From Natrialba aegyptia DSM 13077 (GTDB taxonomy: Archaea > Halobacteriota > Halobacteria > Halobacteriales > Natrialbaceae), in the NCBI RefSeq assembly GCF_000337535.1, contig NZ_AOIP01000032.1, forward strand, positions 1 to 64,000: DNA of 64,000 nt, written 5' to 3'. The position numbers and the translations under genes were made by a program. The notes under the pieces were generated by a model that saw only the letters and a list, made by a program, of their open reading frames with translations, was not told the origin of the DNA and searched no databases. Positions 1 through 61,286 of this stretch are shown piece after piece (position 1 is the stretch's first letter; each line of letters begins with the position of its first letter).

Positions 1-1476
1 CTCGCCGTTGCGGGGTGTCTGGCGAACGATGCAAACAGGGCCGACTTTCGAATCGGTAGCCCGTGGAAACCGAACCGGGACCCGCTCGACGGCGGCAGCA
101 CGATCCGCCGGCTCGGAATCACCGAGGGACTGGTCGGCGTCGATTACGACGCGTCGCCCGCGCCCGAACTGGCGACCGACTGGGAGCGACGCGGCGACCG
201 GGAGTGGGAGTTCACGCTTCGAGAGGACGTTACGTTTCACGACGGAGAGGCGTTCGACGCGACGACCGCCGTCGACTCGCTCACCCGAACCGTCGACGCG
301 CCCGCATTCGAGGACGTTCCGATCGACGCCGTCGAGGCGGTCGACGAGACGACCGTCACCGTCACAACCGAAACGCCGTTCGCGCCGTTGCCGGCTCACC
401 TCTCGCGTAACGAGGCGGTGATCCTCAGCCCCCGCGCCGTCGACGACGACGGGTCGGTCACCGAGACGATCAGTACCGGACCGTTCGCCGTCGAATCGTT
501 CAACCCCAACACTGAGATCCTGACCGCCCGCAACGACGACTACTACGGGCAGGTTCCGGCCCTCGAGTCGGTTCGCTACGAGGTCGTCGACGACGATCAG
601 ACGCGCCGGATGAAACTCGAGAACGGCGAACTCGAGATGGCGCGAATCCTCCCGCACGAAACGGTCGACGCGCTCGAATCGACCGGCGGGATCGACGTCT
701 ACACGCCACCGATTCCGCGAATTCGATTCCTCGCGTTCGATACGGATTCGGAACCGTTCGACGACCGGCGAGTTCGGCAGGCCGTGTCCCTTGCGATAGA
801 CAGGAAGACGATCACCGAGTCGCTCCTGGACGGGCTCGTCGAGCCCGCAGTCGGGCCGTTTTCGCCGTCGATCACCGAGTGGGCGAATCCGGATCTGGAG
901 TCGAATCCCTACGATCCGGACCGGGCCCGGACACTGCTCGACGATGCCGGATGGACCGGAACCGCCGGCGAGACCAGGACGCGCGACGGTGTCGAACTGT
1001 CCGTCGAATTTCTCACCTTCGACGCCAGAAGCCTTCCCCTGATCGCCGAGGTGATGCAAGATCACCTCGCTGCGGTCGGCATCAGCGTCGACGTGCAAAC
1101 GCTCGAGTACAGCGCGATGATCGATCGGGTCACTCAGCGGTCGTTCGACGCCTACTTCACGTCGTGGGGAACGCTTTGGTATCCCGATCCGGACCGACTC
1201 GCGGAGCTGTACCACTCGACGGCCTCGTCGATACCCCACGGCTATGGGAACGATCGCGTCGATACGCTGCTCGAAGACGCACGAGAACTCGACGAGCGCG
1301 GGGCGCGACGGGAACGCTATCGCGAGGTCCAGTCGATCGTCGTCGAAGACGCGCCGATCGTCGTCGTGACCAACGACACGAACGTCATCGCGACCGGGGA
1401 CGATGTCCGTGGCTACGAACCTCACCCGACGGAATTGCACTACGGGCTCGAGGCGATTTCGATGGACAGCGAGTGA
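1..1476 (+). CDS. ABC transporter substrate-binding lipoprotein, family 5 (5' end cut by window)
   Basis: Frame 1 is open from the first base to the TGA at the end. The first visible residues include the lipobox LAVAGC, so only a short signal peptide lies outside the window. The rest has the periplasmic-binding layout of peptide/nickel binding proteins (SBP_bac_5): a WEFTLREDVTFHDGE block, then GPFAVESF, VRQAVSLAIDRK and the late WGTLWYPDPDR block. In archaea such proteins are lipid-anchored outside the cell and hand ligand to a permease. The partner permease and ATPase genes are not in view and would lie upstream. Substrate (oligopeptide, nickel or a metal chelate) cannot be read from the sequence. 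The gene converges on the methyltransferase that follows. Confidence 0.85.
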   Translation, partial: LAVAGCLANDANRADFRIGSPWKPNRDPLDGGSTIRRLGITEGLVGVDYDASPAPELATDWERRGDREWEFTLREDVTFHDGEAFDATTAVDSLTRTVDAPAFEDVPIDAVEAVDETTVTVTTETPFAPLPAHLSRNEAVILSPRAVDDDGSVTETISTGPFAVESFNPNTEILTARNDDYYGQVPALESVRYEVVDDDQTRRMKLENGELEMARILPHETVDALESTGGIDVYTPPIPRIRFLAFDTDSEPFDDRRVRQAVSLAIDRKTITESLLDGLVEPAVGPFSPSITEWANPDLESNPYDPDRARTLLDDAGWTGTAGETRTRDGVELSVEFLTFDARSLPLIAEVMQDHLAAVGISVDVQTLEYSAMIDRVTQRSFDAYFTSWGTLWYPDPDRLAELYHSTASSIPHGYGNDRVDTLLEDARELDERGARRERYREVQSIVVEDAPIVVVTNDTNVIATGDDVRGYEPHPTELHYGLEAISMDSE

Positions 1477-1495
1477 ACGCGGGGCATTCGTCTCC

Positions 1496-2176
1496 TCATT
1501 CGGACACGTCGACGGCCACGAGATACAGTTCCTGCTCCGGCTCTTCCCCCCAGAGCACCGGCTCCGACAGCGGTTCGCACTCGACGGCGTCGAATCCCTC
1601 CTCCCTGAGAAACGCAGTCAATTCCCCGCGCGGACGACCGTCGTACAGCGGTAGGTCGTCGTGAATCGCCTCGTAGCCCTCGAACGGTTCCGGAAAGTCC
1701 CAGTAGCCCTCCACGAGCACGAGACGGCCGCCGGGACGAACGACCCGCTGCCACTCCTGCACCGCCGCCGCGGGCGTCGGAAGCGTCCAGATGAGGTGTC
1801 GCGCCGTCACCACGTCGTAGCCGTTCTCGGGAACTGGTAACTGCTCGGCATCTCCGACGCTGAACTCGATCGACAGTCCCGCCCGCTGTGCCTTCTCTCG
1901 AGCGCGGCCGAGCATTTCGGGCGAGAGGTCGATTCCCGTCACGTCGTGTCCAGCCGCCGCCAACAGCACCGAGAGCGTCCCCGTCCCGCAGCCGAGATCG
2001 AGGACGGATCGGGACCGCTCGCCAACCCACGGACGGAGAACGGACAGCCACGCCTCGCGCTGCTCGTCGGCGTGGACGCCGGAAATGCCGTCGTCGTCGT
2101 ACGACTCGGCCCGTCCGTTCCAGTACTGTTGGACGACCGCTTTGACCGGTTCGTCGGGTCGCTCCGACCGCGTCAT
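1496..2176 (-). CDS. class I SAM-dependent methyltransferase (copy 1 of 2)
   Basis: 226 residues with a standard class I Rossmann methyltransferase core: SAM-binding LDLGCGTG near residue 60, acidic GIDLSPEM after strand 2, GDAEQLPVP (motif II) and a RHLIWTLPTP segment. The C-terminal half carries WDFPEPFEGYEAIHDDLPLY, which is nearly identical in the paralogue at 3240-3920. No specific acceptor can be named. ATG at 2174-2176 is the natural start. It converges with the substrate-binding protein gene and is followed upstream on the same strand by the creatininase-family gene and the second copy, so the three may be co-transcribed. Membership of the fold is secure; the function is unknown. Confidence 0.85.
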   Translation of the reverse strand: MTRSERPDEPVKAVVQQYWNGRAESYDDDGISGVHADEQREAWLSVLRPWVGERSRSVLDLGCGTGTLSVLLAAAGHDVTGIDLSPEMLGRAREKAQRAGLSIEFSVGDAEQLPVPENGYDVVTARHLIWTLPTPAAAVQEWQRVVRPGGRLVLVEGYWDFPEPFEGYEAIHDDLPLYDGRPRGELTAFLREEGFDAVECEPLSEPVLWGEEPEQELYLVAVDVSE

Positions 2177-2491
2177 GACCGATCACCGTCAATCGACCGC
2201 GGGAGTTGCCCCGTTCGTTTCGGGTGCCGACGACACCGCGCGTATCGAACCATGCTCACGACTCCGTCACGCTCCACTAACTGCATTTCGTCACATACGG
2301 CCGAGCGCGAACCGGTTCGGTCGAAACCGCCCCTCCCACACCGCTTCCGTACTGCTCCCCTCACACTGATTCCGTACCGCACCCACCACACGCTCCCGTA
2401 TTGCCCTCACCCCCTACCGCTCCTGTTGCCGCCTTCACGCTCACCTGTGCCCGCTTGACCGCCCTCACTGCCGACTCCACCGCTCCCCGCC
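2177..2491. other. intergenic stretch, strongly C-rich/G-poor on the + strand
   Basis: 315 bases without a convincing gene. From about 2325 to 2515 the + strand is built of short C-, A- and T-rich words with very little G, unlike any coding stretch nearby. Read in the direction of the flanking minus-strand genes it would give a G-rich, C-poor transcript. I find no tRNA fold, palindrome or plausible short reading frame. Confidence 0.5.
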
Positions 2492-3187
2492 CTACTGCAC
2501 GCGCCCCAAAAACGACACGAGCGCATCAACGACCGCTACAAACACTTCTTCGCCCTGTTCCGAACTCGCGTTCGTCGCATCACCGACCGCGCCGTTCTCG
2601 CTGAACTCGTCGGTGAACTCGTGGAGAACCCCGCCGTCGACCGTGCTCGCCCACGTCGTTGCGTCCCCAGCGACCGGATCATCGACATCATCCGGACAGA
2701 GATGAAGGAGAACCGACGTCTCGAGTTCACCGGCGTGTCCGACGTGGTCGTCGAGAGCGCGCATCCATTCCCAGCGGTACGCGGTGAGATCGGTCGCATC
2801 CGACTCGGTCACCTCTCGAGCCAGGTGTGAGAGCGTCTCGCCGTTTCCGCCGTGTCCGTTGACGAATACGACCGTGTCGATGCTCGAACAGGACTTCGCC
2901 AGCGAGTCGACGATATCGCGGGCGTAGCGGCGAAGCGTCTCCGGCGAGATCGACAGGGTTCCGGGGAAGCGGCCGTGGTAGGGTGCGATTCCGACGGGAA
3001 TCGGCGGGAGCACGACTGACGTACCGTCCCACTCTCGGTCGGCCGCAGCGGCGATCGCACGGGCGATGATCGTATCGGTTCCGACCGGTGCGTGCGGACC
3101 GTGTTGCTCCGTGCTGCCGACGGGAACGAGCGCCGCCGTCGGTGCTTCGTCTTCGATCTCCGGCCACGAACTTGTCTCTAGGTGCAT
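2492..3187 (-). CDS. creatininase-family metallohydrolase
   Basis: 231 residues from the ATG at 3185-3187. Upstream in-frame codons overlap the neighbouring methyltransferase gene and look non-coding, so the shorter start is preferred. The family's metal ligands are visible: GSTEQHGPH with E27, H29 and H32, D38 in the following GTDT, and the FVNGHGGNGET block around residue 115. Family members are amidohydrolases: creatininase, the archaeal FAPy deformylase of riboflavin/F420 synthesis, and the MftE peptidase of mycofactocin maturation. No mycofactocin precursor or radical-SAM partner is visible, so that assignment is not supported here. It sits between two paralogous methyltransferases on the same strand, suggesting one pathway. 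Confidence 0.85.
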   Translation of the reverse strand: MHLETSSWPEIEDEAPTAALVPVGSTEQHGPHAPVGTDTIIARAIAAAADREWDGTSVVLPPIPVGIAPYHGRFPGTLSISPETLRRYARDIVDSLAKSCSSIDTVVFVNGHGGNGETLSHLAREVTESDATDLTAYRWEWMRALDDHVGHAGELETSVLLHLCPDDVDDPVAGDATTWASTVDGGVLHEFTDEFSENGAVGDATNASSEQGEEVFVAVVDALVSFLGRVQ

Positions 3188-3239
3188 CGGTCTGATTCGT
3201 TGAACCGCAATCGGAATACGAGCGACGGTTTCCGATCGC

Positions 3240-3920
3240 TCATCGTGGAACGGTACCGACCGCGATATACTGATCATAGTTCGGCTCGTCGCCCCAAAGC
3301 ACCGAATCCATCAGGGGTTCGTACTCGACGGCCTCGAGTCCGTGCTCCGCGAGGAACGCGGCCAACTCCGCGGGCGGACGACCGTCGTACAGCGGCAGGT
3401 CGTCGTGAATCGCCTCGTAGCCCTCGAACGGCTCCGGGAAATCCCAGTGGCCCTCGATGAGCGCAATGTGACCGCCGGGACGGACAACTCGCTGCCACTC
3501 CCGGATCGCGCTCGCGGGCGTCGGAAGCGTCCAGATGAGATGCCGGCCCGTCACCAGATCGAACTCGTTTTCGGGCTCGTCCAGATCCTCCGCGTCTCCC
3601 GCATAGAACTCGGGCGATACCTCGGCCTGACGGGCTTTCTCCTTCGCTCGCTCGAGCATCTCGGTCGAAACATCGACTCCCGTCACGTCGTGGCCGAGTT
3701 CAGCGAGCAATAACGAGATGACGCCGGTCCCGCAGCCGAGATCGAGTATCTGCTGTGGGGGCTCACCCGTCAACGTGCGCAGAACCGAGAGCCACGCCTC
3801 GCGTTGCTCGGTGTCATGGATGGCGTGGTGGCTGTCGTCGTCGTACGTCTCGGCGCGATCGTTCCAGTACGTTTGCACGTGCGCTTTGATATCCTCCGCG
3901 GACGGGTCGGAGCCGGGCAT
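3240..3920 (-). CDS. class I SAM-dependent methyltransferase (copy 2 of 2)
   Basis: 226 residues, the same length as the paralogue at 1496-2176 and sharing long blocks with it: EQREAWLSVLR, LDLGCGTG, RHLIWTLPTPA, EWQRVVRPGG and the WDFPEPFEGYEAIHDDLPLY region. At DNA level the stretch coding for the last block is almost unchanged between copies, which points to a fairly recent duplication or gene conversion. The N-terminal 20 residues and the C-terminus differ. The SAM site and the acidic GVDVSTEM turn are intact. ATG at 3918-3920; the next gene downstream is the creatininase-family hydrolase. Acceptor molecule unknown. Confidence 0.85.
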   Translation of the reverse strand: MPGSDPSAEDIKAHVQTYWNDRAETYDDDSHHAIHDTEQREAWLSVLRTLTGEPPQQILDLGCGTGVISLLLAELGHDVTGVDVSTEMLERAKEKARQAEVSPEFYAGDAEDLDEPENEFDLVTGRHLIWTLPTPASAIREWQRVVRPGGHIALIEGHWDFPEPFEGYEAIHDDLPLYDGRPPAELAAFLAEHGLEAVEYEPLMDSVLWGDEPNYDQYIAVGTVPR

Positions 3921-4635
3921 TATCGGGCACCCCGGATTCGCTCGGTGGACATCCCGCCGCGAGTTCCGCGCGAGCGCAACGGTGTGAGATTTGCGTCTGC
4001 GCTCCGTCGGTTATCGGCTCCGTCTCCCCCGACATCGGAACTACTGCATCTGCTGTCGGGCCTCACTGCGACATCGTTCCTCCGAGCCGCAGCGGCATCG
4101 TCCGTTCGCGCGTTCTGGCGGGCGTCTCCCGGCCGGTTCCGTCCGCCGTCGTCGCCCGTCGTGAGTGAACTCGTCGTTCGAGGCATGTGTTATTAATACT
4201 GAAGCCGGTATTATTTATAATTCCGTATACGGTGACCAGCCGTCGTCTCGCCGGTCGTGTTGGGAGCCGCTACGCGGACTTTCGCGACCGTTGCCCAGCG
4301 GGCCGATGAATATGCTCGTTTCGATCTCGCCGCTTAGACGGAAGTTCAGAACTAATAAGGTATAAATAATTTCAATATTTCCTAACTTTGAATGGTGGTA
4401 TCCCATATTTATAAAAGGATATAAGGGACATGGTGGGGTATACTAACATCAGTTGTAGTAAATACTGACTCTATTTCGGCCGAATAGCGGCACTACAAAC
4501 CCGATGACGATTCACCGGCACGATTCGACCGGTTCCTTTCGTCCGGTATCGCTGATAACTATCATCGAAAACGATGTATATGGCCGGCTGAGCACCTGCA
4601 AGGATTTTTTACCGTTCAACTCACACCCCTATGAT
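3921..4635. other. long intergenic region between methyltransferase 2 and ppc
   Basis: About 715 bases between divergent genes. The first 240 bases are GC-rich with only random-looking frames. From about 4180 to 4480 it becomes AT-rich, with several TATA-like words (near 4193, 4365, 4405 and 4420). These could be extra promoters or mark a small non-coding transcript, but no fold or conserved element is recognisable by eye. An in-frame extension of ppc reaches back to 4504; its residues are unlike the family's N-terminus, and a TATA-like box sits inside it, so I treat it as untranslated. Confidence 0.45.
4604..4612 (+). promoter_or_regulatory. TATA-like box of ppc
   Basis: A T6-A-C-C run centred about 27 bases before the ATG at 4636 fits the haloarchaeal TATA spacing for a leaderless or near-leaderless transcript. 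It supports the 4636 start over the longer in-frame frame. Confidence 0.5.
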
Positions 4636-7326
4636 ATGCGACTACACAACAGGGAAGTCCGGCAGGATGTCCGGGAACTCGGCACCCTACTCGGCGACAT
4701 CCTCGAGGAGCAGACCTCACGCCAGGCCTTCGAAACGGTCGAGTCGTGTCGCCAAGCAGCCATCGATTACCGCGCGGGCGAACTCGACTCAAGAGAGTCA
4801 CTCATCACCGAACTCGAAGGACTCTCACCCCACCAACAACGGATCGTTGCCCGCGCGTTTACGACGTACTTCGAGCTCATCAATCTGGCCGAGGAGCGCG
4901 AACGAGTTCGGTCGATCCGAACCGATTCCCAGGAGGGGGCGCTCGCGGACAGTCTCGAGACGGCGGCGGCTGAACTCGGAGACGAAGATATCGAGACGGT
5001 ACGGCGGGTTCTCGAGGACGTCCTGATCGAGCCGACGTTTACGGCGCACCCGACGGAAGCGCGGCGGAAAACGGTCAAGTCGAAGCTTCGGACGATTGCG
5101 ACGGCGCTCGAAACCTTAGACGAACGGTTGCTCACCGACAAGGAGAAACGACAGGTCTGGAAGGATGTCGACTCCGAGGTGACGAGTCTCTGGCAGACGC
5201 CGCAGGTTCGAAACCGGCAGCCGGAACCGGAAGACGAGGCGCGAAACGTGCAGTGGTATCTGCAGAATACGCTGTTCGACGTGGTCGGCGAGATCTACGA
5301 CGAGTTCGCCGACGCGATCGACGAGGAGGTCGCGGGCGATCTCGATATTCCGAAGCTGTTCGAGTTCAGGTCGTGGGCGGGAAGCGATCGCGACGGAAAC
5401 CCGTACGTGACCCCGGAGGTAACGGCGACGACGCTCGAACGGCAGCGCTCGGTCGTGCTCGAGCGCTACCGCGAGCAACTCAAGCGACTGTCGGGGGTGC
5501 TGAGCCAGGACGGCAGTCGGATCGACACCGGACCGGAGTTCCAGGCTGAACTCGAGGCGGACCGAGAGCGGGTGCCGGGGAGTGCCGAGACCGCGGCAGA
5601 GCGGTATCCGGGCGAGCCGTACCGCCAGAAGCTCAAGTTGATGCGAGAGCGACTGGATCGCGTCGGCGATGTGCGGCCGGGTGGGTACGACGACGCCGAG
5701 GAATTGCGGTCGGATCTGACGGTGATCGCATCGAGCCTCAGGGATAACGGTGCGGAGAGCGTGGTCGATGCCCACGTCGATCCGATTCGCCGACAGGTCG
5801 CGACGTTCAGCTTCTCGCTCGCGAGTCTGGACCTGCGCGATCACCAGCAGAAACACACTGACGCGATCGCGGAGGCACTGGAAGCGGAGGGCGTCGATTA
5901 CCACGGCCTTTCGGAGGACGAGCGCGTCGAGTTGCTGACCGACGCGATCTTGCAGGACGAGCCGGTGATCGACCTGACGGCGACTGCCGACCTCTCGGAC
6001 GATTCCGCTCGCGTCCTCCGCCTGTTCGACCGGCTCGCGGACTGGCAGACCGAGTACGGCGTCGAGGCGATCGACACCTACTGCATCTCGATGACCGAGG
6101 AACCGAGTCACGTCCTCGAAGTCCTGTTCCTGGCCGATCAGTCGGGCGTCATCTCTCTGCCCGAACACTGCGGGATCGATATCGTGCCGCTGCTCGAAAC
6201 CGAGTACGCGCTCTCGGGCGCACGCCGAATCATGGGTTCGCTTTTCGAAAACGAGGCCTACGCGCAGGCGCTCGAAGCGCGCGGACGCACGCAGGAGATC
6301 ATGCTCGGCTACTCGGACTCGAACAAGGAAAACGGCTTCCTGGCGGCGAACTGGTCGCTGTACAAGAACCAGCGCCGACTCGGGGAGATCTGCGACGACC
6401 ACGACGTGACGATGCGGCTGTTCCACGGCCGCGGCGGGTCGATCTCGCGCGGCGGCGGCCCGATGAACGAGGCGTTGCTCGCGCTGCCAAACAGCACCGT
6501 GACGGGCCAGGTCAAGTTCACCGAGCAGGGCGAGGCGATCGCCGAGAAGTACGCCAACCCCCGCATCGCCGAGCGCAACATCGAACAGATGCTCAACGCA
6601 CAGCTTCGGGCGCGTCTCTACGCGGAAGACCAGCCCGAAGAGGAGGTCCGCGAGGAGTGGGTCGACGCCATGGAGACCATGGCCGATGTCGCCCGCCGGG
6701 AGTACCGCGACCTGCTCGAGAGCAACGGCTTCGTCCAGTACTTCGAACAGGCGACGCCGATCACCGTCATCGAGGACCTCGACCTGGGATCCCGTCCCGC
6801 CTCTCGCTCCGGCGAGCGGACCGTCGAGGATCTGCGGGCGATTCCGTGGGTATTCTCCTGGACTCAATCGCGGTGTATCCTACCCGGCTGGTACGCCATC
6901 GCAACCGGGATCGACGCGTACCTCGACGACGGCGGCGACGTGGAAACCCTCCAGGAGATGTACGAGTCGTGGCCGTTCTTCCGGACGACGCTCGACAACG
7001 CCGCACTCTCGCTCTCTCGCACCGAACCCGAAATCGCAGCCCAGTACGCTGAACTCGCGGACGAGGATCTCCGCGAGCAGTTCTTCCCGCGACTGCTCGA
7101 CGAGTACGAGCGAGCGGCCGACCTGATCACGCAAATCGGCCAACGTGAGCAACTGCACACCCGCGACTGGCTGGGCGAAAACCTGGAGCGACGAAACCCC
7201 TACGTCGATCCGCTGAACCTGCTCCAGACGTACCTGCTCGATCGCTCGCACCGGACGGACATCGAAGAGCGAACGCTCCGATTGACGGTCAAAGGGATCG
7301 CTGCCGGGATGAAAAACACCGGATAA
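4636..7326 (+). CDS. ppc: phosphoenolpyruvate carboxylase
   Basis: 896 residues, the usual size of bacterial-type PEPC. It adds bicarbonate to phosphoenolpyruvate to give oxaloacetate, refilling the TCA cycle. Family signatures appear in order: TAHPTEARRKTV (about residue 136, catalytic His), GSDRDGNPYVT (about 249), MLGYSDSNKENGF (about 556), FHGRGGSISRGGGP (about 596), GSRPASRSGE and RAIPWVFSWTQSR (about 735), and the C-terminal MKNTG that the family uses to close its active site. The GYSDSNKENG block has Asn and Glu where many bacterial enzymes have Gly and Asp. The start at 4636 is chosen from the homologous N-terminus and TATA spacing. It converges with the MoxR gene. Confidence 0.97.
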   Translation: MRLHNREVRQDVRELGTLLGDILEEQTSRQAFETVESCRQAAIDYRAGELDSRESLITELEGLSPHQQRIVARAFTTYFELINLAEERERVRSIRTDSQEGALADSLETAAAELGDEDIETVRRVLEDVLIEPTFTAHPTEARRKTVKSKLRTIATALETLDERLLTDKEKRQVWKDVDSEVTSLWQTPQVRNRQPEPEDEARNVQWYLQNTLFDVVGEIYDEFADAIDEEVAGDLDIPKLFEFRSWAGSDRDGNPYVTPEVTATTLERQRSVVLERYREQLKRLSGVLSQDGSRIDTGPEFQAELEADRERVPGSAETAAERYPGEPYRQKLKLMRERLDRVGDVRPGGYDDAEELRSDLTVIASSLRDNGAESVVDAHVDPIRRQVATFSFSLASLDLRDHQQKHTDAIAEALEAEGVDYHGLSEDERVELLTDAILQDEPVIDLTATADLSDDSARVLRLFDRLADWQTEYGVEAIDTYCISMTEEPSHVLEVLFLADQSGVISLPEHCGIDIVPLLETEYALSGARRIMGSLFENEAYAQALEARGRTQEIMLGYSDSNKENGFLAANWSLYKNQRRLGEICDDHDVTMRLFHGRGGSISRGGGPMNEALLALPNSTVTGQVKFTEQGEAIAEKYANPRIAERNIEQMLNAQLRARLYAEDQPEEEVREEWVDAMETMADVARREYRDLLESNGFVQYFEQATPITVIEDLDLGSRPASRSGERTVEDLRAIPWVFSWTQSRCILPGWYAIATGIDAYLDDGGDVETLQEMYESWPFFRTTLDNAALSLSRTEPEIAAQYAELADEDLREQFFPRLLDEYERAADLITQIGQREQLHTRDWLGENLERRNPYVDPLNLLQTYLLDRSHRTDIEERTLRLTVKGIAAGMKNTG

Positions 7327-8328: not shown

Positions 8329-8539
8329 GAAAGCGTCCTCGGCCGCTCGTGTCAAATGGTTTTCGCTCCTGGTGGCTCTACTGGACCGTGATCGCTGGAA
8401 CGCGTTCGTGACCGGTTCCTCGACTGGCGTCCCCCGTTCGAGGATCGCCGACGGCGGCCAGCCGATCGGACGTGACCGATCCACAGACTCCGAGAGAGAT
8501 CGAAACCGGTAAAAACGTTACCCGAGTATCAACGGATGA

Positions 8540-8624
8540 GCCGAGATAGCCTAGCCCGGCCAAGGCGGCAGATTCGAAATCTGCTGTCCCCACGGACTCG
8601 GGAGTTCAAATCTCCCTCTCGGCG
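8540..8624 (+). tRNA. tRNA-Ser(CGA)
   Basis: 85 nt. Acceptor stem gccgaga (8540-8546) pairs with tctcggc (8617-8623); discriminator G at 8624. The anticodon stem gcaga/tctgc (8568-8572, 8580-8584) encloses loop ttcgaaa, giving anticodon CGA (8575-8577), which reads UCG serine codons. The T arm gggag/ctccc encloses ttcaaat. A long variable arm (about 8585-8599) is typical of class II tRNA-Ser. No CCA is encoded and no intron is seen. A short T run follows at 8625. Confidence 0.95.
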
Positions 8625-8797
8625 TTTTTCGCGAGACGCTACCTCCGAGCGCCGTGTAGCGTGTGCTCGGTCTCGGATGCAACCTGCACTCGTAGCGAGC
8701 ACGAGCTGTACCGGAACGCCGCTGGACGAGAGAAATGCACGCTTTGCTCGCCGTCATCTGCAGGGGACCCCATTATTCACGTCGGGCTGGTCGATAT

Positions 8798-8824
8798 CCC
8801 TGACAATGAGTGTCATAATTCAGG
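8798..8824. promoter_or_regulatory. interrupted palindrome upstream of the iron-sulfur gene
   Basis: TGACA-5 nt-TGTCA (8801-8815) lies inside a looser cctga...tcagg frame, about 30-55 bases before the iron-sulfur gene start at 8855. This is where an operator overlapping an archaeal promoter would sit. No binding protein can be named and chance is possible. Confidence 0.25.
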
Positions 8825-8854
8825 GTGCGATCGGCAGCGGGGTGGGCAGCGACG

Positions 8855-10456
8855 ATGACTGATCCAGGTGACCGGGACGAGCACGACGATCGAGCGGGCA
8901 GCGATCGAACCGATCCGGATGAGCCGGATGACTCCGCCGAGAAACGAGATCGAAAGCGAGACTCGGAGGGACCGTCGGCAGACGACACACGGCCGGACGA
9001 TACACGGCCGGACGACACACAGACTGACGACACACAGACTGACGACACACAGACTGACGAGACTGACCTCGAAACCGGAGAGCTATTCCACCCGCTCGGC
9101 GAGAGCGCACAGACCGATTTCAGGGACATGCTCGAGGAGACCGAGTACGACACGGACCTCGGCATGGAGATGGCCAGAGACGCGATGCGGCTCACGAAAG
9201 GTGAACTCTCCGAGGAAGCGTTCTACGACCGGTACCACGACGAGGTCGTCGACGAGTTCGGCGAGGACGAACGGCCGATGGCCGAACGAGTCGAGGCGGC
9301 CCGCGAGGAGGGACGACTCGACCGGGCGCTGTCGCGGTTCGGCGCGGAAGACGAGTCACGGCGGGAGCTACTCACGAAGATGGGTGCAAGCGCGGGTATT
9401 TTCGGGTTCAGCGCGTGGGGGGCTTCGCACGCCGATGAGTCGGATCCGGTGGCCGGAGCGATACAAAACGAGACGGACGAAGATGGAGGAGATGACGGCG
9501 ACCAAACGCAGTGGGGAATGGTTCTCGACCTCGAAACCTGTGACGGCTGTCTCTCCTGCGTGGTCGCCTGCAACGACGAGCACAACTGGAACGACGGCGC
9601 GAACTGGATGTACATCCTCGCCTACGAGGACGGCACCGTCGAATCCCCCGATGCCGACGAGTTCGAGGACACGCGGGATTTCAACTACCTGATCCGCCCC
9701 TGTCAACACTGTACCGACGCGCCGTGCGAAAAGGTCTGTCCGACGACGGCCCGCCATACCCGCGAGGACGGTGGCCTCGTTCTGACGGATTACAACGTCT
9801 GTATCGGCTGTCGGTACTGCCAGGTTGCCTGTCCCTACGGCGTCAACTACTTCCAGTGGGAGGACCCGGCGTCCGAGGCCCCCTCAGAGGATCTCGGCGA
9901 GGACATGATGTACGACGAGCGCGGCCGCTGGGTGAGTGGCCGCGGTCCGCGCGGCGTCATGGAGAAGTGCATCTTCGATCCGGCCCGCCAGGACGGCAAT
10001 ATGGGCGAGGACATGGTCGGCACGACCGCCTGCGAGGAGGCCTGCCCGCCCGGCGCGATCCAGTTCGGGAATATGAACGATCCCGACAGCGATCCCCAGC
10101 AGTACATCGAGAACGTTCCGCTCGCGCGAGCGCTCGAACACGACCCCGACGACGAGGAACTGCAGGAAGCCATCGCAATCGTCGAGGGCGAGGAGGAACC
10201 GGCGAGCGAGGACGACGAGGACGGCATGACCGAAGAGGACGCGATGCGACTCCTGCGCGGCGAGTACGGCGATAACACTTCGTCGTTCAAACTCCTCGAA
10301 GAGTACAACACCGACCCGAACGTCACCTACCTCGGCAACGAACCCGGATCCGAGGCCGAACAGGTCGAGGGCCCGGTCGCCTACGACGATGTCAATCTGG
10401 TCGATAACCGGATGAACGAAACCGAAGAGCGCACCTTCGGCGGCCTCGAGTTATAG
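8855..10456 (+). CDS. ferredoxin-like electron-transfer subunit with four Fe-S motifs (DmsB/NrfC/PsrB type)
   Basis: 533 residues from the ATG at 8855. The C-terminal part holds four cysteine groups: CDGCLSCVVAC (about 229), CQHCTDAPCEKVCP (about 283), CIGCRYCQVACP (about 316), and a split fourth group with an early C and CEEACPPG. This is the four-[4Fe-4S] layout of the electron-carrying subunit of molybdopterin oxidoreductases. Residues 1-165 are acidic, low-complexity then helical; a twin-arginine segment SRRELLTKMGASAG with a hydrophobic run follows only at about 168-190, far from the N-terminus. No catalytic molybdopterin subunit is in view. A two-helix membrane protein follows 55 bases later and may be its anchor. 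Partner and physiological reaction are unknown. Confidence 0.85.
   Translation: MTDPGDRDEHDDRAGSDRTDPDEPDDSAEKRDRKRDSEGPSADDTRPDDTRPDDTQTDDTQTDDTQTDETDLETGELFHPLGESAQTDFRDMLEETEYDTDLGMEMARDAMRLTKGELSEEAFYDRYHDEVVDEFGEDERPMAERVEAAREEGRLDRALSRFGAEDESRRELLTKMGASAGIFGFSAWGASHADESDPVAGAIQNETDEDGGDDGDQTQWGMVLDLETCDGCLSCVVACNDEHNWNDGANWMYILAYEDGTVESPDADEFEDTRDFNYLIRPCQHCTDAPCEKVCPTTARHTREDGGLVLTDYNVCIGCRYCQVACPYGVNYFQWEDPASEAPSEDLGEDMMYDERGRWVSGRGPRGVMEKCIFDPARQDGNMGEDMVGTTACEEACPPGAIQFGNMNDPDSDPQQYIENVPLARALEHDPDDEELQEAIAIVEGEEEPASEDDEDGMTEEDAMRLLRGEYGDNTSSFKLLEEYNTDPNVTYLGNEPGSEAEQVEGPVAYDDVNLVDNRMNETEERTFGGLEL
8981..9055 (+). repeat. five 15-bp tandem repeats inside the iron-sulfur gene
   Basis: Units of 15 bp begin at 8981, 8996, 9011, 9026 and 9041. 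The first two end in ggccg; the last three are identical and end in agact. Each encodes DDT plus two residues, extending an acidic linker in frame. Copy number can vary without shifting the frame. Confidence 0.9.
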
Positions 10457-19759: not shown

Positions 19760-20431
19760 TCAATAGATCAGTTCGTCGTCGTTCTCGACCATGTACAGCG
19801 TCCGTGCGGCGATGTTGACGGCGTGATCGCCGACCCGTTCGAGGTCTCGAATCGTCAACAGGAGACGCGAAACGTCCTGCAGAAGCCGTTCGACCTCGTC
19901 GGGCGAATCGAGTTCACGTTCGATGAGGTCGCGGACGACGATTTCGCTCGCGCGCTCGGCGAAGTGATCGAGGTCGTCGTCGCGTTCTGCCAGTTCGCGG
20001 CAGCCGTCGGTGTCTTCGCTGTCGTAGGCGAGCATCGCGTCTTCGATCATGTCGAGGGTCATCTCGCCCATCTCCTGCACGTCGACATCGGGGAAGAGGT
20101 CGTGTCTGGCGTCGAGGGTGTACTCGCCGAGGTTGACCGCGAGATCGCCGATTCGTTCGAGGTCCGTGATGATCTTGAACGACGCGGCGATAAACCGCAG
20201 ATCGCTGGCGACGGGTTGCTGGAGGGCCAGCAGTTCGATACACTGCTGTTCGAGGTCGAGGTACTGCTGGTTGACCTCGCTGTCGCCTTCGATGACCTCG
20301 CGGGCGAGATCGTTGTCCTTCTGTTCGAGGGCGTCAAGCCCCATCCGAAGGCGTTCCATGACGATCTCGCTCATGTAGAGGATATCCTCGCGAAGCGTTT
20401 CGAGTTTCTCCTGGTAGGATTGGCGGGCCAT
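19760..20431 (-). CDS. phoU: phosphate signalling protein PhoU
   Basis: 223 residues with two PhoU three-helix repeats: the first around DLARE...DSEVNQQYLDLEQQ and ASFKIITDLERIGDLAVNL (about 80-100), the second around ERDDDLDHFAERAS and LTIRDLERVGDHAVNIA (about 190-207). The E/DxxRxxDH-type metal-binding patches are intact. PhoU restrains phosphate uptake through PstSCAB. Here it lies on the same strand as pst but is separated from pstB by an alcohol dehydrogenase gene, an atypical arrangement. ATG at 20429-20431. Confidence 0.92.
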   Translation of the reverse strand: MARQSYQEKLETLREDILYMSEIVMERLRMGLDALEQKDNDLAREVIEGDSEVNQQYLDLEQQCIELLALQQPVASDLRFIAASFKIITDLERIGDLAVNLGEYTLDARHDLFPDVDVQEMGEMTLDMIEDAMLAYDSEDTDGCRELAERDDDLDHFAERASEIVVRDLIERELDSPDEVERLLQDVSRLLLTIRDLERVGDHAVNIAARTLYMVENDDELIY

Positions 20432-20512
20432 ACTGCAGAAAGCACGCTGGTGGTTGATAAAGATTGGTAGCGATGAACTCTCGTCTCGGTTCGTCGCTGC
20501 CTGTTCCTCGCC

Positions 20513-21670
20513 TTAGGGGTGCAACAATACCTTCGTCACGCCCTCCTCCCGCTCGTCGAACCGTTCGTACATCTCGGGGGCATCCTCGAGTTCAACCTCG
20601 TGGGAGACGAGAAAGCCCGGTTCGGCCCGGCCGGAGACGATCATGTCGCGGAGCCGTCGGTTGTAGCGCTTGACCGGGCACTGTCCGGTGCCGAACTGGA
20701 GGCCTTTTTCGAAGGCGATGCCGAGATCGATGTTGAGTAATCCCTGTTCGTCGACCTGCTCGGGCGGGTCGGGTTCCTCCGAGATGTAGAGGCCGACGAT
20801 GCCGATCTTGCCGGTCGCTTCGACCGCCTGAATCAGTTGGTTGATCACGAGCGAGGGGTTCTCGCGTTCGTGATCGTAGGGGTGGTCGCCGTCGCGTTCG
20901 CTGTCGATCGCCTGGTAGCCGACGGCGTCGACGCCCTTGTCTACCGGGCCGCCGTGGGCGTCGACGATGGCCTCGGCTGCATCCGTCTCCTCGAAGTTGA
21001 TCGTCGTCGCGTCGCAGTGGTCCTCGGCCAATTCGAGGCGGCTCTCGACTCGATCGACGACGTAGATTTCAGAGGCACCCTTGAGTTTCGCGCTGTAAGC
21101 AGCCATGAGGCCGACGGGACCAGCGCCGAAGACGGCGACCGATTCGCCGGGCTGGAGGTCGGCGAGTTCGGTGCCGTGCCAGCCGGTGGGGAACACGTCG
21201 GCGAGCATGATGAAGTCCTCTTCGTGGCCCTCCTCGGGTAAGGAGAGGGCGTTGAAGTCGGCGTAGGGGACGCGGACTTTCTCTGCCTGCCCGCCCTGAT
21301 AGGGGCCCATCTTGACGTAGCCGTAGGCGCCGCCGGGCGTCTCCGCGACGGTTTCACAGTAGTTGTAGTTCCCTTCCTCGCAGTTTTCGCAGAACCCGCA
21401 GGCGATATTGAACGGGAGGACGACTCGGTCGCCGGGTTCGAGCGTGTCGACGCCCTCGCCGACCTCGGCGATTTCGCCCATGATCTCGTGGCCGAAGACC
21501 ATCCCCTCGTCGGCGCCGGCCCGTCCCTCGTACATGTGCAGGTCCGAGCCGCAAATCGCGGTCGTCGTCACGTCGAGTATCGCGTCGTTCGGGTGTTCGA
21601 GCGTCGGTTCGTCGATTTCATCGACCGATACGTCGTGGGAGTCGTGGTAGACAACGCCTCTGATTGACAT
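20513..21670 (-). CDS. zinc-dependent alcohol dehydrogenase lying between pstB and phoU
   Basis: 385 residues from the ATG at 21668-21670; the GTG three codons upstream is less likely. Catalytic zinc motifs ICGSDLHMYEG and GHEIMGEIAEVG; structural zinc loop CGFCENCEEGNYNYC; cofactor site VFGAGPVGLMAAYSAKL followed by VDRV. It belongs to the same long-insert MDR branch as the enzyme at 15058-16233 but is clearly divergent from it. Substrate unknown. It sits where pst operons usually run straight into phoU, so it may be read with the phosphate genes. Confidence 0.85.
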   Translation of the reverse strand: MSIRGVVYHDSHDVSVDEIDEPTLEHPNDAILDVTTTAICGSDLHMYEGRAGADEGMVFGHEIMGEIAEVGEGVDTLEPGDRVVLPFNIACGFCENCEEGNYNYCETVAETPGGAYGYVKMGPYQGGQAEKVRVPYADFNALSLPEEGHEEDFIMLADVFPTGWHGTELADLQPGESVAVFGAGPVGLMAAYSAKLKGASEIYVVDRVESRLELAEDHCDATTINFEETDAAEAIVDAHGGPVDKGVDAVGYQAIDSERDGDHPYDHERENPSLVINQLIQAVEATGKIGIVGLYISEEPDPPEQVDEQGLLNIDLGIAFEKGLQFGTGQCPVKRYNRRLRDMIVSGRAEPGFLVSHEVELEDAPEMYERFDEREEGVTKVLLHP

Positions 21671-57465: not shown

Positions 57466-57645
57466 CTATCCGAGTTGCTTCAACGTCTGGAGGTCGCGGT
57501 CGGTCCGCATGAACTCGGCGGTCCGCCGGGAGGCATGACAGTTCGGGCAATGAAACATTTCGGTCGATGTCGGTAACTCACCCGGTTCCGTTTGCCAATC
57601 CTTCGTACACTCCGGACACAATAGTTGGACGGTCGTCTCGACCAT
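57466..57645 (-). CDS. 59-residue zinc-finger protein (two CPxC motifs)
   Basis: ATG at 57643-57645, TAG at 57466-57468. The protein starts MVETTVQLLCPECTKDW and carries a second knuckle HCPNCHASR, then a helical end FMRTDRDLQTLKQLG. CPEC and CPNC would hold one zinc ion, the hallmark of haloarchaeal small zinc-finger proteins. A T-run in the promoter (gtttttcacc near 57670-57679) sits about 28 bases upstream. It lies directly downstream of the tfb gene on the same strand, 120 bases away. Confidence 0.82.
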   Translation of the reverse strand: MVETTVQLLCPECTKDWQTEPGELPTSTEMFHCPNCHASRRTAEFMRTDRDLQTLKQLG

Positions 57646-59069: not shown

Positions 59070-59771
59070 ATGACCGTTCGATTCGGCGCGATCACTGTCG
59101 ATTGGCTCGGCCGGGCAACCGTCTGACTCGAAGGAGAGACGGGGACCGTCATCTACGCCGATCCCGGCCCCGAGACGGATAGCAGAGTCGACGGTCAAGC
59201 CCCCCACGACGGCGACCTCATTCTCGTCTCACACGGCGCTCACTACGATCCCGACTCGATCCGCCGTCTCGCCCACGAGAACTCGATCGTCGTCGTCCAC
59301 GAATCGATCGACGCCGAGACGATCGACCGGGCCGCCGAGCAACCCGACGCTCTCCCCTTCGAAGTCGCTCGTGTCCAGGAAAACGAGTCGTTCATCCTCG
59401 GCCCGCTCGACCTCTCGACGACGCCGACCGAGACCGAACCGGACGGCCCCCGCGCCGATGAACGAAGCCAACCCGGTGGCGCGTCCGACGAGGGCTGCGG
59501 CTTTCTCGTCACCATCGATGGCATCACGGCGTTCTGGCCCGGCAACACGGAGCCGCTGTCGTCCCACGACGAACTCGCCGTGGATCTCTTCTTGGCTCCA
59601 ATCGGCGGTGGCCCCACGATGGATCGACACGAGGCTGCCGCCCTGGCGACGCGACTTGACCCGGATCTCGTGCTGCCGGTCCGGTACGAACCGACCGACG
59701 CTCGCACCGACGACGAGGCGTTCGTCGTCGACGTTGCTACCCGCGGCATTCCGGTGGTCTTGGACCGGTAG
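59070..59771 (+). pseudogene. MBL-fold metallohydrolase gene with an in-frame TGA at codon 19
   Basis: ATG at 59070 begins MTVRFGAITVDWLGRATV, then TGA at 59124-59126, then the same frame continues open to the TAG at 59769-59771: LEGETGTVIYADPGPETDSR, ILVSHGAHYDPDSIRRLA, FWPGNTEPLSSHDELAVDLF, ending VVDVATRGIPVVLDR. Family members have an arginine-like residue at this spot (ATVRLE), so CGA to TGA is the simplest change. The metal motif is also altered: HGAHYD instead of HxHxDH. Haloarchaea are not known to use selenocysteine. Most likely an eroding MBL gene; a start downstream would leave out the first strands. Confidence 0.7.
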
Positions 59772-59915: not shown

Positions 59916-61286
59916 GTGACTCGAGAGGTGAGCCGCGTGGGAACTAACACCGGTTCCGAAACCGACATCGAGGCGGATCTCTCCTACCCGGCCAGCAGTT
60001 GGCGAGGTTTTTTCACGAATCACTTCGGCCCGTCGATGCTCTGGGCGCTGATCAGCATCGGCGGCAGCCACATCGTCCTCGCGCCGACGCTCGGGGGGAC
60101 GTTCGGGCTCTTTGCCATCTGGATGTTCGCACTCATCTACCTCGCAAAGTACGGCGGCTGGGAACTCGGCATCCGCTACAACTACGGCGTCGGCGGCAAC
60201 CCCGTCGAAGCCTACGATCAGCTCCCCGGCCCGAAAAACTGGATGCAGTGGTTCACCGTCGGCGTCTTTACGATCATCTACACGGGAATCACCGCCGCAG
60301 TCGGAATGAGTACGGCCGCGTTCGTCGAAGCATTGACCCCGCTGTCGTTCCAGCAGGCGTTCGTCGTCTTCGTCGGTCTGGCGGGCGTCCTCGTCCTGTT
60401 CACCCGCTACAGTCTCCTCGAGAAGATCCTGATCGGCTTTACGGTCGCGCTTGGCGTCCTCATCGTTCTCGGCGTCCTCGTCGGTCCCCCGTCGGGTGAA
60501 GTCGTCGCGGCCACGACCTTCACCGCGCCGGATCTCACCGGGCCGCTGTTCATCGGCCTGTTCGCCGCCGCCGCCGGATTCGCGCCGACCGGATTCAGTA
60601 CCAGCGTCCTCATCGGTAGCTGGAGCACCGCCAAAGGCGAGGGCGCGAGCGAACTCCGGGCCCGAAACCTCGATCCGAACGACGACCGGTATCACGACTA
60701 CATCCGCGCCTGGATCCGAACCGGTCGCCGCGACTTCAACATCGGCTACGCCTTCAGCTTCACGCTGATCGTTGCGATGGTGATCCTCGCCTCGAACGTC
60801 CTCTACCCCACCCCGCCCGAAGACGCCAATCTCGCCGTCACCATCGGGTCGATCCTGAGCGACTCCTTCGGCGAGTGGTCCTACTACGCGATGGTCCTCG
60901 GCGCGTTCGCAGCCCTCTACTCGACCGTCATCACGCTGCTCGACGGGGCCGCCCGAGCCACCGGCGACGTCCTTCCGATGGCACTCGACCGACCCGAACT
61001 CGATAGCGAGCGGATCCGCAAACTCGTCGTCGTCGGCATCGTCGCCGTCAGCTGCGGCGTCGTCGTCACGCTCGGTACCGTCCCGGTCACCTTCCTCATC
61101 TGGATCTCGGCGATCCTCGCGGTCACGGAGATCCTCTTTTACCCCGCAAACTGGTACGTCGTCCGGGAGAACCTCCCCGAACGGTTCCAGCCATCCCGCG
61201 CGTGGGTCGCCTACTACGCCGTCAGTCTCGTCGTCGTTCTCGCGTTCGGCATCATGGGCGCGGCATCCGAGTTCGGCTACGTCTGA
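59916..61286 (+). CDS. Nramp-family transporter lacking the metal-site motifs
   Basis: 456 residues from the GTG at 59916; GTG codons at 59928 and 59937 are equally plausible (TSS expected near 59887 from catatatttc at 59861-59870). About eleven hydrophobic helices. TM1 reads GPSMLWALISIGGSHIVLAP: the helix-break DPGN of Nramp is replaced by GGSH. In TM6 AAAGFAPTGFSTSV stands where Nramp has MPH. Both are the metal-binding sites, so transport of Mn/Fe is unlikely. Other parts (SLLEKILIGFTVALG, DGAARATGDVLPMAL, SAILAVTEILFYPANWYV) keep the fold. Substrate unknown. Confidence 0.8.
   Translation: MTREVSRVGTNTGSETDIEADLSYPASSWRGFFTNHFGPSMLWALISIGGSHIVLAPTLGGTFGLFAIWMFALIYLAKYGGWELGIRYNYGVGGNPVEAYDQLPGPKNWMQWFTVGVFTIIYTGITAAVGMSTAAFVEALTPLSFQQAFVVFVGLAGVLVLFTRYSLLEKILIGFTVALGVLIVLGVLVGPPSGEVVAATTFTAPDLTGPLFIGLFAAAAGFAPTGFSTSVLIGSWSTAKGEGASELRARNLDPNDDRYHDYIRAWIRTGRRDFNIGYAFSFTLIVAMVILASNVLYPTPPEDANLAVTIGSILSDSFGEWSYYAMVLGAFAALYSTVITLLDGAARATGDVLPMALDRPELDSERIRKLVVVGIVAVSCGVVVTLGTVPVTFLIWISAILAVTEILFYPANWYVVRENLPERFQPSRAWVAYYAVSLVVVLAFGIMGAASEFGYV

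Follow-up and report, generated by a model that had tools for sequence, protein, structure and literature searches.

Besides the canonical Nramp/MntH (SLC11) carriers, the Pfam family PF01566 holds Nramp-related proteins, which a 2026 preprint describes as paraphyletic and diverse at both the TM1 and the TM6 motif (PMC12873925). In the available text of that preprint, a characterised or hypothesised member is given only for the NRMT-like and 'G-motif 3' (MntG) groups, and most Nramp-related groups are stated to be uncharacterised (legend of Fig. 1); Cellier has described an outgroup of PF01566 (PMC9606685, PMC10606218). MntG/YcsG of Bacillus subtilis (PMC10448178) and MumT (PMC5050338), both Nramp-related and encoded in catabolic operons, are reported Mn importers, the latter with ICP-MS data. 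PxpT of Corynebacterium glutamicum shares 50% identity with YcsG; growth on 5-oxoproline requires it, complementation in trans was obtained, and the authors do not exclude metal transport (PMC13274462). EleNRMT is a Mg transporter (PMC8806188), and an M-box Mg riboswitch lies upstream of some NRMT members. In BfraNramp, exchange of the TM1 aspartate for alanine (D38A) abolished transport (PMC12873925).

In this work we focused on a protein of this kind encoded in a window of 64,000 nucleotides, which is the whole stretch of Natrialba aegyptia DSM 13077 DNA that was analysed. Like the 'G-motif', orphan and outgroup proteins as their sources describe them, it belongs to PF01566 and has neither DPGN, nor MPH, nor the TM3 proton-pathway acids; as it also stands outside the canonical Nramp clade in our tree, it is Nramp-related. 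The clade to which it belongs, named here GxSH after its TM1 motif, was compared with the named G-motif groups by description only (PMC12873925, PMC9606685, PMC10606218). Since the wider Nramp-related group is already in print, motif loss is a known class, and it is not rare, because none of the five PF01566 proteins of the N. aegyptia genome (TM1 motifs GPGT, GPAT, GPGS, GSGS and GGSH) carries DPGN and the motif-lacking group in print is broad. A literature search, mostly restricted to papers outside subscription, found neither the GxSH clade nor its contexts, and on organic transport by PF01566 proteins it found only the 5-oxoproline work.

The gene, its family and its fold

The transporter gene occupies positions 59916..61286 of the forward strand, starts with GTG and encodes 456 amino acids. 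Its reading frame is intact, with a third-position GC of 0.86, and each of the 28 related loci found has it open too; over the best segments the protein is 98% identical to that of Natrialba asiatica (L006) and 97% to that of N. taiwanensis (L013). The match to PF01566 is weak but passes (42.2 bits against a cut-off of 29.8). The protein also scores 70 bits, against a cut-off of 50, with the NCBIfam model NF037982, whose product name is 'Nramp family divalent metal transporter' and whose cut-off was passed as well by all ten motif-lacking relatives scanned. No match to the curated MntH models PRK00701 and TIGR01197 was obtained up to an E-value of 1. Against solved chains, phmmer returned two weak, unrelated matches only (E 0.13 and 0.17), the close-family profile returned none, and of the sequence profiles the mixed profile A3 alone reached Nramps. 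Between positions 57500 and 62000 there was no Rfam match up to E 1, to the M-box Mg riboswitch, another metal riboswitch or otherwise, and two scans for relatives in viral contigs confirmed none.

The LeuT fold is common to Nramps and other carriers. The low-confidence AlphaFold model of the window protein has this fold at a mean pLDDT of only 63, and Foldseek matched it to Nramp chains in the 1e-6 range of E-values, the best match being an integrative model of YcsG (E 9e-7). The VIA-align Z-scores were 21.5 for NRAMP1, 21.4 for EleNRMT and 20.3 each for NKCC1, the YcsG model and SLC7A10. By modelled fold, then, metal and organic carriers are indistinguishable, NKCC1 and SLC7 scoring nearly as high as the Nramps. 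Since the pLDDT falls below 50 at residues 37-63 and 190-240, which are exactly TM1 and TM6, no binding site was read from the model. The LeuT fold thus has the support of a model of modest quality, and the protein would be a secondary carrier from the Nramp-related branch of PF01566.

The helix breaks of TM1 and TM6

GGSH is encoded at 60060..60071 of the forward strand (codons 49-52), in the broken TM1 helix. As the TM1 alignment is free of gaps between Gly38-Pro39 and Trp69, GGSH covers DPGN, with Gly49 in place of Asp, Gly50 of Pro, Ser51 of Gly and His52 of Asn. This register, which had been proposed from direct reading of the sequence, is gap-free in MAFFT and in the HMM alignment to BfraNramp, EleNRMT and DraNramp, and also in both hhalign runs, where the per-column confidence is low. 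The counterpart of Asp38 of BfraNramp in the GxSH clade is therefore a glycine. GGSH is exact in 27 of the 29 close loci (the window and 28 others) and reads GASH in L011 and L012; Gly49, Ser51 and His52 are invariant in the 23 aligned clade members and in two gammaproteobacterial relatives, L108 and L109 (25/25). Whatever the register, residues 37-68 of the window protein contain no Asp or Glu, and His52 is the sole titratable residue of the TM1 core. In other groups the fourth position of the TM1 motif is Glu or Asp (GSGE, GAAD, GTAD, ATGE), which suggests, without proving it, that this position carries a role in binding or coupling.

The case of TM6 is less settled. APT (60582..60590, forward strand, codons 223-225) likely stands at the place of MPH, as the first-pass annotation had it, and it forms part of a GFAPTG stretch found in all 29 close loci. 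The register is unproven, since one hhalign run places MPH opposite APT, a gap breaks up the motif in the other, and the MAFFT and HMM alignments shift it by about four residues. In any register, residues 209-239 of the window protein hold no Met and no His. As a refutation the first-pass annotation had named an alignment that places an Asp/Asn and Met/His elsewhere in these positions; the two stretches of the window protein hold no acid and no Met or His, respectively, but those of some relatives do. Glu58 is present in L018, L021 and L026, Met-Pro (Met223, with Pro224 as anchor) in six relatives (L060, L063, L068, L071, L108, L109) and His227 in L028, L030, L031 and L074. Asp/Glu228 occurs in seven non-haloarchaeal GxSH rows (L060, L063, L071, L076, L077, L108, L109).

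In TM3 (residues 109-140) the sole acid is Glu138, at the far end. TM8 carries a signature, STxxTxxDGxxR (60921..60956, forward strand, codons 336-347), whose positions are invariant in 23/23; in L108 and L109, which retain GxSH and Asp-Gly of TM8, Ser336 is not conserved. Twenty-nine positions do not vary among the 23 clade members, including Gly49, Ser51, His52, Lys78, Gly221, Pro224, Ser336, Thr337, Thr340, Asp343, Gly344 and Arg347; alignment A1 comprises 22 of the 29 close sequences.

Compared with DraNramp and BfraNramp, the window protein thus shares the gap-free TM1 alignment and the LeuT fold, but DPGN is absent and MPH is not kept. With EleNRMT it has in common the superfamily, the replacement of the TM6 Met by Ala and the high Z-score given above, whereas both the Asp of TM1 and the Glu of TM3 are retained in EleNRMT (PMC8806188); the window protein has Gly at the first of these places and is free of acids in that stretch of TM3. 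Where the NRMT signature is DxxG in TM1 and TxxA/T in TM6, the window protein has GxxH and, in the likely TM6 register, AxxA.

The GxSH clade and its gene neighbourhoods

In a tree of 45 rows, the 16 GxSH rows form one clade (support 100/99). Its members are haloarchaea, two Azospirillaceae, two gammaproteobacteria, L071 and L068, an archaeon from a different family. Together with rows of the GSGE and ATGE kinds the clade makes up a group of 26 rows (97/96). The seven DPGN rows (100/99) stand apart from it, with NRMT (90/85) and the GPGT type (94/92) close to them, and the window protein is likewise apart from NRMT. The phylogeny that had been called for thus gives a single branch apart from Mn/Fe Nramps and NRMT. 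An earlier 36-row tree recovered the clade again (97/97); long branches were flagged in both trees, and midpoint rooting served for drawing only. The 45-row tree used 11 of the 18 rows of alignment A2, with L060, L063, L115 and the cut-off gene L098b left out.

Among 392 sampled genomes of the phylum, 57 had a match to the window protein at E 0.001 and 12 a long match with at least 45% identity, while G215 had a fragment at a contig end. Among the relatives, L076 and L077 from Azospirillum and Skermanella plasmids and L108 and L109 from gammaproteobacteria share GxSH and the TM8 DGxxR with the window protein, but differ by the acid at position 228 and have no neighbour genes in common. In other archaea (L053, L055, L056, L058, L059, L062) PF01566-like proteins are encoded in open frames about 660-680 residues long, in which an extended hydrophobic C-terminal stretch follows the transporter part.

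Downstream of the window gene lie a gene for a 103-aa protein without a Pfam match and those of topoisomerase VI A and B. No metal regulator adjoins the transporter in the window, none being annotated or recognised by Pfam, in agreement with the first-pass annotation. Upstream, a gene for a metallo-beta-lactamase (MBL)-fold, UlaG-like hydrolase (59070..59771, forward strand) ends 144 bases before the transporter start codon. An in-frame TGA stands at codon 19 (59124-59126) and interrupts this gene, the rest of the frame being open and the copies of relatives intact, with PF13483 found in the intact hydrolases of L006 and L014; a sequencing error and a real loss cannot be told apart here.

An MBL hydrolase gene precedes the transporter on the same strand in 20 of the 29 loci, the window and L024 included, with a small opposite-strand ORF in between in six loci and an unassigned ORF in L030. 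It is absent upstream in eight (L012, L018, L021, L026, L028, L029, L031, L032), and the contig of L011 begins too near the transporter to judge. In 11 loci an FAH-family gene stands before the hydrolase gene on the same strand (Pfam was run on L016 only). These loci are not independent, because nearly all are from Natrialbaceae and L016 and L017 are two copies from one organism, and the upstream genes in the group of the window may be plain synteny among close relatives. In Natronorubrum bangense (L016, L017, L078), the block of FAH, hydrolase, transporter and topoisomerase VI genes, with gyrase beyond, is found on chromosome and plasmid records. In L024 (Natribaculum breve, 20335-21015) a gene that by eye resembles one for a DtxR-type metal regulator lies about 9 kb from the transporter. 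The context is different in L064 and L065, two genomes of the GxSH clade in which the gene divergent to the transporter codes for a TPP enzyme and has SDR, M24 and IclR genes behind it (Pfam on L064 only), with another MBL-fold gene on the other side of the transporter, and in L032 (Halovivax asiaticus, 8398-9764), where two TenA-like genes, the second confirmed by Pfam, are directly upstream.

Among the N. aegyptia paralogues, L001 (L116 6946-8166, C3; TM1 GPGT), of which the Haloarcula litorea gene L113 is a relative, is separated by 85 bases from the HyuA gene (PF01968) that comes after it and has upstream a CopG-family regulator, of which Pfam found the ribbon-helix-helix part only. L003 (L118 5965-7215, C61; TM1 GPGS) is followed at 168 bases by a xylose-isomerase-like gene, and FAH and Gfo/Idh/MocA genes are nearby. 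A Sensor-domain gene stands next to L002, and the surroundings of L004 gave nothing telling.

For wider relatives we considered 21 annotated plasmid loci (L074-L078, L098-L107, L110-L115), which hold 22 genes that lack the TM1 Asp, two of them in L098; the bacterial neighbourhoods come from plasmids only, and the hits were hand-picked from ranked or spread listings. Catabolic gene sets (sugar-acid, CoA-acid, hydantoin or similar) surround ten of the 22. On a Rubrobacter plasmid (L098, 4908-11182) two Nramp-related genes flank genes for a UxaA-family hydrolase and a GntR-type regulator. L104 has thiolase and CoA transferase; the close pair L105 and L110 has PdxA, a four-carbon acid sugar kinase, an aldolase and a dehydrogenase; L111 has a family 43 glycosyl hydrolase. 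L112 is accompanied by mannonate dehydratase, an aldolase-family protein, aldehyde dehydrogenase and IclR, L113 by a HyuA-HyuB-racemase operon (hydantoinase/oxoprolinase) with a CopG-family regulator upstream, L114 by UxaA and MFS genes, and L078 by MBL and FAH genes.

For the other 12 the catabolic link is not clear. L074, L075, L076, L077, L101, L102, L103 and L106 have no clear one; a TrmB-family regulator follows the transporter in L075, an NhaA gene stands beside the Azospirillum relative L076, and an MgtC/SapB gene lies two genes away in L102. Ambiguous are the close pair L099 and L115 (SLC13 permease), L107 (creatininase family, with a heavy-metal ATPase about 5 kb off) and L100 (Roseomonas plasmid, 1-6350), where a GSGE-type relative stands beside catecholate-siderophore-type genes, a possible metal link. 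The unannotated L108 and L109, judged from ORFs by eye, showed no recognisable catabolic or metal gene set.

None of the 22 genes has a neighbour annotated as a metal-responsive regulator, against three of five DPGN genes (L079, L080, L081, but not L083, which adjoins a dienelactone hydrolase gene, nor L084); L082, with DPSG, entered neither count. Fisher's exact test gave p 0.003, which is a hint only, because the rows are related and hand-picked.

Candidate substrates

Our best reading of these sequence comparisons, which we hold to have about an even chance of being right, is that the GxSH transporter imports a small organic, perhaps anionic, solute, possibly a carboxylate, and not Mn or Fe. 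Candidates would be sugar acids and keto acids, or else derivatives of a lactone or a lactam. Such a solute would bind at the TM1/TM6 break, His52 would take part in binding or in proton coupling, and the hydrolases encoded just upstream in many haloarchaea would act on the imported compound. Several observations support this: the metal-binding Asp is replaced by Gly in a gap-free register, the clade is separate from DPGN and NRMT proteins, FAH and MBL hydrolase genes lie upstream and catabolic sets surround 10 of 22 relatives, to which the TPP-enzyme sets of L064 and L065, the TrmB regulator of L075 and the contexts of L001 and L003 may be added, and PxpT is required for growth on 5-oxoproline (PMC13274462). 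The organic reading is weakened by the 12 of 22 relatives without a clear catabolic link, one of them (L102) near MgtC/SapB, by the possible synteny and the interrupted hydrolase gene of the window, and by a fold that does not discriminate.

PxpT and YcsG/MntG, likened to the window protein by description and by the match to the YcsG model, are Nramp-related as well, but their genes sit with pxpABC (PMC13274462, PMC10448178), whereas the N. aegyptia genome gave no match to PF03746 (PxpA). With no PxpA-family gene, 5-oxoproline use via PxpABC is unsupported for this organism. PxpA was found in 8 of the 392 sampled genomes, and in two of the 12 with a relative of at least 45% identity, there on another contig; five of the eight PxpA regions held no Nramp-like gene (tblastn with 19 Nramp-type queries).

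The idea of another substrate had come from the first-pass annotation, which also held that a related protein shown to carry Mn or Fe would count against it. The lost Asp, the invariant Ser-His, the separate clade and the catabolic contexts of relatives speak for that idea, but the Mn import reported for MumT (PMC5050338) and for MntG/YcsG (PMC10448178), from catabolic operons, speaks against it and lends weight to a transporter that still carries a divalent metal through a rebuilt site. In that site the usual ligands would give way to Ser51, His52 and backbone carbonyls, joined in some relatives by a Met or an acid of TM6; Ser-His is invariant at the place of Gly-Asn, Met-Pro occurs in six relatives, and the Asp/Glu228 of sister GxSH groups and some Met223 could bind a cation. 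We consider this unlikely on balance, since the TM1 core of the window protein lacks acids and its TM6 lacks both Met and His, and the hand-picked counts put an annotated metal regulator beside none of 22 relatives against three of five DPGN genes. Quite unlikely, in our estimate, is the carriage of an inorganic ion or a neutral solute rather than an acid (urea-like, a thiamine precursor or a monovalent ion): the TenA-type genes directly upstream in Halovivax and the NhaA gene in Azospirillum would fit it, and LeuT-fold carriers of ions and neutral solutes score equally high in the fold comparison, but each such neighbour occurs in one lineage only. That the protein is a sensor or transceptor without transport, which the loss of the residues for the known ligands had brought to mind, seems highly improbable; this reading is unsupported because the single transporter domain has no added domain and no conserved regulatory partner, and the helix-bundle residues are kept across the clade.

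Beyond this clade, it is conceivable, though we regard it as rather doubtful, that the part of the 'Nramp family' without the TM1 Asp consists largely of organic-acid or lactam importers, in which the fourth TM1 residue (His, Glu or Asp for Asn) binds or couples; GxSH would be one member, and the metal Nramps would have arisen from such carriers. For the GxSH proteins, a clade of their own within a class that has been described but little studied, an organic substrate class is plausible, and a testable class is useful because most Nramp-related groups are stated to be uncharacterised (PMC12873925). If the organic reading is true, importers are mis-named as divalent metal transporters in many genomes, and the branch would illustrate a path by which a metal site could emerge in an organic-carrying fold.
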